Below, in pieces: positions 18,250 to 20,485 of a DNA stretch of 64,000 nucleotides. The notes below the pieces were generated by a model. The model saw only the letters and a program-made list of their open reading frames with translations, was not told the origin of the DNA and made no database searches. How positions within the stretch are numbered: position 1 is the stretch's first letter; each line of letters starts with the position of its first letter. The DNA lies in NCBI RefSeq assembly GCF_000801335.2, contig NZ_JSEH01000001.1, positions 248,001 through 312,000 on the forward strand. Reading direction: 5' to 3'. This DNA is from Desulfovibrio sp. TomC (lineage in GTDB: Bacteria > Desulfobacterota > Desulfovibrionia > Desulfovibrionales > Desulfovibrionaceae). The translations under genes and the position numbers were made by a program.

Positions 18250-18355
18250 TGACACCCGGTGGGATCAATCCTTTTTTACGTAAGACCCAATGTCATGGAT
18301 TGACCTTTCACATGGAATAGTTTTGGATGGAAAAAATTATCGGTCAGGAGTTCCC

Positions 18356-20485
18356 ATGCGTGACCGCAGCATCGCCCCTTCCCCCGGCATTGCAATGCTC
18401 TGGCTGGGAATCATCTTAAGTCTTTGTATCGTCGTTACGACTTTTTTTGCAAATATGTATATAGCCGTATCCATTGCCGTCCTCGGATGCGTTGCGAGCT
18501 GGATTGTCGCTCAGCGCATCAACTCGCCGCTTCAAAGGCTTTTCCAGGGATTTCAAAAAGTCAACAGTGATCATAAAACCTTTTTCCTGGATGAAGTTAT
18601 CTCCTGGCAAGCACTTGGCCCTCTGGGCCAGGAAGCTTCAGAAGCGTTTGAATTCAGCCTGCTCCGACGCGAGTACTACCGGGCCGCTGTCCTCGCTGTG
18701 GGTACCCCGTTTTTGATTACCAACAAAGACGGTATCATCACCCATTGCAGCCAGACCATGGCCGAATTGCTCCGCAAACCCCAACGGGATCTAATCGGCA
18801 AGACCGTCAGCCAGGCGGCGTATAATAAGACCGGTATTGCCATCACGGAAAAAGCTCTTCAGGACGGCAGTTCCATCCAAGCCGAACGAGATCTCGCTTT
18901 GTGGGATGGACGAACGATTGCCTGCTATTTTACAGCCAGTTGCTTTCGAGGGTTCCGCAACGACCTGCTCGGTGCGGTCTGCACCATCACCGACCAGTCT
19001 CAATTGCGCGCCCAGCAGCAGGATCTGGAAAAGACGCAAAGCGAACTGCGCAACCTCGGCGGCGACATCAACGAGTTGTCCCAGCGCGTGGCTTCGGCCT
19101 CGGAAGAACTTTCCGCCTCCTCCGACGAGCAGGCCCGAGGGGCCCAGCAGCAGAAAGGGCAGGCCGACGCCGTGGCTACGGCTATGGAAGAAATGACGGC
19201 CACGGTCATGGAAGTCGCCAAAAACGCTGCCCAGACCTCCGACGCCGCCGTCGGCGCCAACACGGCGGCCGAAACAGGCGCTGTCCAAGTCCGCGAGGCT
19301 GTGGTCGGCATCAAGGCCGTGGCTGAATCCGCCGGCAAACTCGGTCAGGTGCTCACGTCTCTCGACAGCCAAGCCGCCGAGATCGGCCGCATCATCGGCG
19401 TCATCAACGACATCGCCGACCAGACCAATCTGCTGGCCTTAAACGCTGCCATTGAGGCCGCCCGGGCCGGCGAGGCCGGTCGCGGCTTTGCCGTGGTGGC
19501 CGACGAAGTGCGAAAGCTCGCTGAAAAAACCATGACCGCCACCAAGGAAGTGGAAAAGTCCATACACGAAATCCAGGACGGTTCCCGTCACGCCGTGGCC
19601 TCCATGCAGGAAACCGAGGCCCGGGTGGCCACCAGCACCGAGGCCACCCACAAGGCCGGTGAATCCTTGGAACACATCATGGCCAGCATCCGCGAGGTCA
19701 ACAGCCAAGTCAGTCAGATTGCCACAGCCGCTGAACAACAATCTGCCGCGGCTGAAGAGATCAACCACAACATCGAAGTCATCGCCCATGTGGCTGCTGA
19801 GGCCGACGAAGGCGCGGGCCAGACCGCTCAGGCGACCCGCGAACTGGCCGAATTGGCCAACTCCCTGCTCACCCTCGCGACTTCTTTTGCCCAGCGCCAG
19901 GGCGATTCCCTCAAGCTGCGCGAATCTGCCGGCAACATGAAAGGCATTCTCCCCAAACTCATGCTGGATTTCATCCAAGACCAGTATGGCGACGGGGTCT
20001 CCAACGCCCTGCAGGAAGATATGGGATACCCCACCTTCCTGCCCACTCAGAACTATCCCGATCAGGTCCTGCGCCAGATGGCGGACTTCGTGTCGGCCAA
20101 GACCGGCAAAAGCGTCAAAGAGGTGTTCCTGGCCCTGGGACGCTACACCATCAAGGGCTTCCACCGCCATTATCCGCGCTATTTCAAGGGCGAGACACTC
20201 AAAGAATTCTACCTGACCATGAACGACACCCATGCCCGGCTGACCAAGGATATGCCCGGCCTGTTGCCCCCGCGCTTCAGCTACGAGGACAAGGGCGATC
20301 GTTTGATCATGACCTACCATTCCAAGCGCGCCTATCCTGAATACTACGAGGGCATCCTGCGGGGCGCGGCCGAATTCTTCAAGGAACCAGCGGACATCAC
20401 GGTCTCCTACAGTGACCCGCACACGGCCCGGGCCGAGATCATTTTCCGCGGGACTGCCCGTCGCCCCAAGGCCCTCGGGGCGTAA
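18356..20485 (+). CDS. Methyl-accepting chemotaxis protein with PAS and C-terminal H-NOX domain
   Basis: A 709-residue chemoreceptor. Two membrane helices lie near residues 12-55, with almost no periplasmic loop, then a PAS domain (about 100-215), a signalling domain with the hairpin tip [20 protein letters not shown], and finally an H-NOX heme domain (about 528-700). The H-NOX heme-ligand histidine is His626 (NDTHARLT), and the heme-propionate YxSxR motif is Tyr654-Ser656-Arg658 (YHSKR), so heme binding is expected. H-NOX domains bind NO and sometimes O2. The ATG at 18356 has an AGGAG. The C-terminal position of the H-NOX is notable; see findings. Confidence 0.93.

Follow-up and report, generated by a model that had tools for sequence, protein, structure and literature searches.

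The window analysed here, a stretch of 64,000 nucleotides from Desulfovibrio sp. TomC, contains a gene whose product is, in our judgement, likely to be a membrane-anchored chemoreceptor devoid of a periplasmic sensor, in which a cytoplasmic PAS domain is combined with a C-terminal H-NOX domain at the base of the signalling bundle, O2 being a likelier ligand than NO.

A chemoreceptor gene ending in an H-NOX domain

A second in-frame ATG exists further upstream, at 18290. We retained the ATG at 18356 as the better start because AGGAG lies 5 nt before it (18346-18350). Pfam coordinates were obtained in the 731-aa numbering that begins at the upstream ATG; subtracting 22 converts them to the 709-aa numbering used everywhere else in the text. 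In the 731-aa numbering, Pfam recognised PAS at 129-235 (4.8e-9, above the cut-off), MCPsignal at 317-501 (1.2e-48, 165.7 bits, above the cut-off) and HNOB (PF07700) at 551-704 (2e-35, 122.6 bits against a curated cut-off of 25.5), which bears out the order membrane-PAS-signalling-H-NOX proposed in the first-pass annotation. The features of the gene are as follows, Tt designating the Caldanaerobacter H-NOX used as a reference:

18346..18350, + strand: AGGAG, which probably serves the ATG at 18356 as ribosome-binding site (sequence; inference)
18356..20485, + strand: MCP-H-NOX chemoreceptor gene, 709 aa plus stop (open frame, Pfam)
18383..18511, + strand: membrane hairpin, two hydrophobic helices at about residues 10-30 and 34-52 (hydropathy; model helices 10-30 and 34-71)
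18674..18994, + strand: cytoplasmic PAS, residues 107-213 (Pfam; strands in the model)
18998..19465, + strand: descending N-helix of the MCP hairpin, residues 215-370 (model secondary structure)
19238..19792, + strand: MCPsignal domain, residues 295-479 (Pfam)
19466..19489, + strand: AGEAGRGF, residues 371-378, tip of the hairpin and its conserved end for kinase coupling (motif position; model break at 371)
19469..19894, + strand: ascending C-helix, residues 372-513, ending beside the start of the PAS/N-helix (model)
19895..19936, + strand: 14-residue linker, residues 514-527 (sequence alignment; pLDDT below 50 at 515-517)
19937..20482, + strand: H-NOX (HNOB) domain, residues 528-709 (Pfam; phmmer to Tt H-NOX, 4e-23; Foldseek)
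20231..20233, + strand: His626, proximal heme ligand, equivalent to Tt His102 (alignment; H in 82/83 fused proteins)
20315..20329, + strand: YHSKR, residues 654-658, YxSxR heme-propionate motif, equivalent to Tt 131-135 (alignment)
20342..20344, + strand: Tyr663, distal-pocket tyrosine, equivalent to Tt Tyr140 (alignment)

The near-zero loop between the two N-terminal hydrophobic helices points to a receptor without a periplasmic sensor. That the central part belongs to the MCP family is indicated by the match to PF00015, by the tip, where six of the eight columns of AGEAGRGF are invariant among 50 aligned sequences, and by the long predicted antiparallel hairpin formed by residues 215-370 and 372-513; methylation-like motifs, identified by pattern only, occur at four places across both helices (residues 246, 254, 274 and 456).

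In the host genome, a profile search returned a single HNOB match, which is this gene, and 45 matches to PF00015 in about 41 separate frames. The nearest of the seven named relatives aligned were Desulfovibrio sp. DV (86%) and Solidesulfovibrio aerotolerans (78%), which marks the host as Solidesulfovibrio-like. Compared with seven relatives of the same genus, the H-NOX part shows a dN/dS of about 0.10-0.26, from which we conclude that the domain is maintained by purifying selection; these values and the Pfam scores rule out a chance or degraded H-NOX domain. A one-off fusion or an assembly artefact is ruled out by the same domain order in many relatives.

Distribution of the two domain orders

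The first-pass annotation had suggested a survey of MCP-H-NOX orders in the Desulfovibrionaceae, the family of the host. An HNOB gene was found in 81/199 genomes of this family, and inspection of all 81 genes placed MCP first and H-NOX last in 80. The family's single standalone H-NOX (L002, genome G198) is a 222-aa frame (E 3.7e-51) that falls in another clade and is without the distal tyrosine. An order-wide draw matched 85/247 genomes and added two families (f99 and f97); the three newly found matches that were inspected (L090-L092) are all MCP-H-NOX. The HNOB frames of the two f97 genomes are short (183 and 147 aa), so to judge from frame length unfused or broken forms may exist in that family. 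Phylum-wide, 10/297 genomes matched, and the six outside the family are frames of 186-246 aa with no MCP match.

A non-exhaustive pattern scan of named genomes yielded 36 loci, comprising 31 MCP-H-NOX, four H-NOX-MCP (in titled Bacillota genera) and one unfused H-NOX (Desulfothermus). Thirty of the 31 MCP-H-NOX loci are titled as Desulfovibrionales members or only as Deltaproteobacteria/Proteobacteria, the last one being labelled Planctomycetaceae. For the Bacillota, the phylum of Pectinatus, 27/249 genomes matched; 25 loci from these 27 genomes gave 19 H-NOX-MCP (in one of which, L159, the H-NOX is split over two frames), six without an MCP match and no MCP-H-NOX. A draw centred on Caldanaerobacter returned almost the same genomes as the one centred on Pectinatus. 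The fused Bacillota receptors inspected thus have H-NOX first, and the earlier statement that the order in the window's receptor is reversed relative to the Tar4 type holds; among the loci inspected, domain order divides cleanly by lineage.

Several individual loci deserve mention. The contig labelled Planctomycetaceae that carries an MCP-H-NOX gene (L116/L135) has an H-NOX nearly identical to that of L066, from the host's family; given this near-identity, misbinning is likely, and we did not retain horizontal transfer to Planctomycetes. In the genome labelled Planctomycetaceae (G594), HNOB is followed by a Ser/Thr kinase-like part, judged by eye, in one 498-aa frame (L136:1486-2979, +). In the draft genome of Desulfothermus okinawensis (L110:1945-3534), the H-NOX frame is immediately preceded by MCP-like fragments spread over several frames, and this seems to be the same fusion broken by mutation or sequencing error. 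One scan of viral contigs, queried with the Tt H-NOX, gave no relative.

Heme pocket and likely ligand

Searched against the PDB, the H-NOX part has its top sequence matches with Caldanaerobacter (Tt) H-NOX (E 4e-23 to 2e-21), with Nostoc coming next (about 5e-9), and Foldseek, queried with the AlphaFold model, likewise lists Tt H-NOX before the other H-NOX structures. In the alignment to Tt H-NOX, Y654, S656 and R658 of YHSKR fall on Y131, S133 and R135, and His626 on the proximal ligand; both were correctly described as intact in the first-pass annotation. We then considered the 83 distinct fused MCP-H-NOX proteins, the window's own among them. YxSxR is kept in 82/83, the remaining row (L081) being cut off by the contig end, and the position of Tt Tyr140 is occupied by Y in 80 and by F in two (L079 and L080), L081 again being cut off. 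In L079 the proximal His is replaced by Tyr and the distal Tyr by Phe, and in L080 the distal Tyr is replaced by Phe; both keep the architecture, and they are possible heme-free or altered variants.

Distal tyrosine is described as required for O2 binding, and the MCP-fused H-NOX domains of anaerobes as likely O2 sensors, in the available portion of PMC8738867. The presence of this tyrosine makes O2 a likelier ligand than NO, and we regard the H-NOX domain of this receptor as more likely an O2 sensor than an NO sensor. This assignment is made with reserve: Trp9, Asn74 and Tyr140 occur together in 20/20 Bacillota receptors, whereas the C-terminal H-NOX receptors (n=88) have Met9 in 62, Thr74 in 78 and Tyr140 in 85, and the window's receptor, with Met and Thr at the first two positions, keeps only Tyr140 of the Tar4-type trio. 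Because the partners of Tyr140 are replaced, the domain may bind O2 only weakly, and its true ligand may be NO.

It is accordingly conceivable, although we would not bet on it, that the receptor is an NO sensor whose H-NOX domain, at the base, reports NO arising from nitrate/nitrite chemistry, the tyrosine merely tuning affinity. Besides the absence of the Trp9/Asn74 network, such a role would agree with the binding of NO by H-NOX domains of facultative anaerobes (PMC8738867, in the part available) and with the description of HNOB as an NO sensor (PMC8846402, likewise in part). It is harder to reconcile with the link between distal tyrosine and O2 binding drawn in the same portion of PMC8738867, and with the distribution of this residue, present in 80/83 fused proteins versus only 1/15 unfused H-NOX, that one being L110, which lies inside the C-terminal clade. 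O2 therefore remains our preferred ligand.

Spacing, co-inheritance and descent

Measured from a fixed point in MCP, the spacing to the start of H-NOX varies little: of the 83 proteins, 60 have 28 residues, 13 have 27, five have 26, three have 29, one has 31 and one has 32 (range 26-32). The linker drifts quickly in sequence and is nearly fixed in length, with a KLRxS-like motif near its end visible in many relatives. Across 77 proteins, MCP and H-NOX distances correlate at 0.82, compared with at most 0.16 in 200 permutations, shared species history being uncontrolled in this comparison; such a correlation is expected if MCP and H-NOX were inherited together as one unit. The N-terminal parts are variable, with PAS in most, HAMP in L041 and neither recognised in several. 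What stays constant is the combination of MCP and H-NOX.

We built a careful tree from 59/123 rows and a quick tree from all 123. In the careful tree, the C-terminal receptors and L110 make up one clade (support 100/99) and the N-terminal receptors, those of the Bacillota, another (100/100), a sister relationship between the two being weakly supported (85/56); in the quick tree, the Bacillota clade groups with four standalone proteins (92), apart from the C-terminal clade. An origin of the distal tyrosine on two occasions was considered and set aside, the trees disagreeing and supporting it neither way. As a more tentative scenario, which we put forward with less than even confidence, H-NOX may have been joined to chemoreceptors twice, at opposite ends, by two groups of anaerobes that have each either retained the O2-type tyrosine or regained it, the receptors of Desulfovibrionales being dual-input devices with PAS and H-NOX at the base and a dedicated che pathway.

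Gene neighbourhood and possible chemotaxis pathway

Flanking genes were compared in 60 loci, i.e., L032-L081 plus ten chosen named loci. A same-strand chemotaxis gene lies downstream of the receptor in 30/60: cheA in 21 (0-135 nt between the receptor stop and the next frame) and a divergent MCP-like gene in nine (10-288 nt), one of the nine also having cheY; L033 and L112 are apparently the same contig, giving 29/59 if counted once. The other 30 loci have no chemotaxis gene downstream (29 with 1.3-2.9 kb of downstream flank, L081 with none), and all members of the window's own genus in the sample are among them. In longer stretches, Pfam identified MCP-H-NOX followed by cheA and cheB (L191; L193 is similar by sequence starts), MCP-H-NOX followed by cheA and cheR (L192), and MCP-H-NOX followed by MCP-like, cheY, cheA, cheR and cheB genes (L197). 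Genes named from their sequence starts as ClpA-like and Aat-like are found nearby in L191, L193 or L202, and ClpS-like ones in L193 and L202. A protein of about 600 aa, in which MCPsignal is matched in two separate stretches, heads a cheA cluster in L197:5454-7277 (-) and L202:9417-11213 (-); it adjoins MCP-H-NOX in nine loci.

In the window, the receptor gene is flanked by a GH3-like gene (judged by eye) and glycosyltransferases, not by che genes, with a GGDEF gene two genes upstream. A frame resembling a multi-PAS-type sensor kinase (window:23241-25337, -) follows downstream of the glycosyltransferases; gene order, by eye, is apparently the same in L194, of the same genus. On the same contig, at a distance of about 121 kb from the receptor gene, the host genome has an operon of MCP-like, cheA, cheW, cheR and cheB genes; genes of the fliR and flhB families lie about 5 kb beyond it, and the receptor may serve the pathway encoded by this distant operon. 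Several CheA-like genes are present in the genome: the operon CheA is 62% similar to the L191 CheA and the CheA-like protein of host contig C16 is 61% similar, and this near-equality weakens a firm assignment of the operon CheA as the receptor's partner.

Taken with the linker data, these neighbourhoods bear on an alternative that we find unlikely, namely that the H-NOX tail is a tethered module acting elsewhere (on receptor clustering, on a partner histidine kinase or diguanylate cyclase, or on CheR/CheB access) with no direct allosteric input. The linker is flexible and of low confidence in the model, the GGDEF gene is at hand in the window, and standalone H-NOX proteins are reported to act in trans on kinases and cyclases (PMC8738867 and PMC8846402, in the parts available). 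A mere tether would nevertheless fit poorly with a spacing that is near-fixed across genera and with chemotaxis genes linked in half of the loci, whereas the flanks contain a relative of the window's GGDEF in only 2/60 and of its sensor kinase in 1/60, these being the only two kinds of query used. We thus favour an H-NOX domain that would act directly on the receptor carrying it.

Predicted position of the H-NOX domain relative to the bundle

In MCP signalling domains, two antiparallel helices form a hairpin, and the tip, which binds CheA/CheW, lies mid-sequence. The structure model of the receptor (mean pLDDT 82.9, pTM 0.44) has this shape, with a helix at 215-370, a break at 371, a helix at 372-513, a low-confidence linker and an H-NOX fold. 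The return of the C-helix from the tip covers 142 residues, i.e., about 213 Å at 1.5 Å per residue, so that its end is level with residue ~229, just below PAS. With the tip at about residue 371 and a C-helix running back over this distance, H-NOX should be located at the membrane-proximal base of the bundle, beside PAS. It is the helix lengths that put H-NOX at the hairpin base; the pose of H-NOX relative to the bundle is not predicted by the model (pTM 0.44, low-confidence linker), and a loosely tethered domain is possible.

The first-pass annotation had H-NOX at the far tip side, near CheA/CheW and CheR, which we consider highly improbable: although the domain is C-terminal and Tar and Tsr have a C-terminal CheR/CheB-binding pentapeptide (PMC7390727, in the part available), the hairpin topology of the model puts the C-terminus at the opposite end, the solved full-length structure of TlpD (PAS-MA-CZB) shows base placement, its C-terminal sensor and the kinase interface being more than 140 Å apart (preprint PMC12871147, in the part available), and an aromatic-x-x-aromatic end resembling the CheR-binding pentapeptide occurs in 0/83 fused proteins, the window's included (L081 is cut by the contig end). 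Tip-side placement was, thus, rejected on the model topology and the TlpD structure, and proximity to CheR through a tail pentapeptide is unsupported. The further idea that the receptor has a different way of feeding its signal in survives in modified form: the sensor is joined to the ascending C-helix, at the base, and not to the N-terminal side, and DcrH and TlpD are precedents.

Proposed mechanism

The mechanism that we propose builds on the domain order, pocket residues, conservation, clade, spacing, predicted hairpin and che linkage in relatives, as observed or computed above. The N-terminal PAS would be joined to the descending helix and the C-terminal heme H-NOX to the ascending helix, the two lying side by side at the base. 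From these features we infer that H-NOX binds heme and gas: a gas molecule, O2 more probably than NO, would bind the H-NOX iron and cause the H-NOX subdomains to reorient. H-NOX would then contact and act on the bundle base, as in DcrH or TlpD, the signal presumably passing from there to a particular CheA partner. The resulting behaviour might be avoidance of, or positioning in, an O2 or NO gradient. Cells probably use the reversed design to guide their movement by oxygen or nitric oxide, which would make this protein a candidate O2 or NO receptor for sulfate reducers.

Comparison with known systems

Iyer et al. 2003, in BMC Genomics, reportedly defined HNOB and may mention C-terminal H-NOX chemoreceptors. 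Our literature search, itself partial, found no published description of such a receptor. Chemoreceptors with a C-terminal LBD are presented in the available part of PMC7390727 as a poorly characterised subfamily of at least 17 types, counted from Pfam; they generally resemble the window's receptor in having the sensor after the signalling domain, and the 17 or more types may or may not include HNOB. H-NOX domains of anaerobes are said, in the accessible text of PMC8196705, to be fused to C-terminal effectors, and an aerotaxis review from 2026 (PMC13401364) does not use the term "H-NOX" in its main text; it is, therefore, easy to overlook a class of receptors that has its sensor last and extends across a lineage. 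C-terminal sensors in chemoreceptors are already precedented (DcrH, TlpD and others), and it is the reversed H-NOX order that was not found described.

DcrH of Desulfovibrio vulgaris (TM-HAMP-MCP-hemerythrin), from a related sulfate reducer, is similar in having a C-terminal cytoplasmic, iron-based O2-binding domain after MCP, and negative aerotaxis has been proposed for it (PMC13401364, PMC9388753, in the parts available). It differs by its diiron hemerythrin in place of a heme H-NOX, and by its periplasmic region and HAMP. Helicobacter TlpD (PAS-MA-CZB) shares the N-terminal PAS, the hairpin and a C-terminal sensor near PAS at the base (PMC12871147, in the part available), but is soluble, with a zinc/CZB sensor, a shorter bundle and no canonical methylation sites.

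The Tar4 type of Caldanaerobacter/Thermoanaerobacter (H-NOX-TM-MCP) is built from the same two families, has the distal Tyr, the His and YxSxR, and provides the closest solved H-NOX. There, however, H-NOX is N-terminal and not C-terminal as in the window's receptor; Trp9 and Asn74, constant in the Bacillota receptors, are absent here, and the two types form separate clades in the sampled tree. With both orders of the same two modules occurring in nature, it can be asked directly whether the direction of the signal depends on the helix to which the sensor is joined; if the dual-input reading is true, the Desulfovibrionales receptor would amount to a natural experiment, showing whether input through the ascending helix drives a chemoreceptor equally well.
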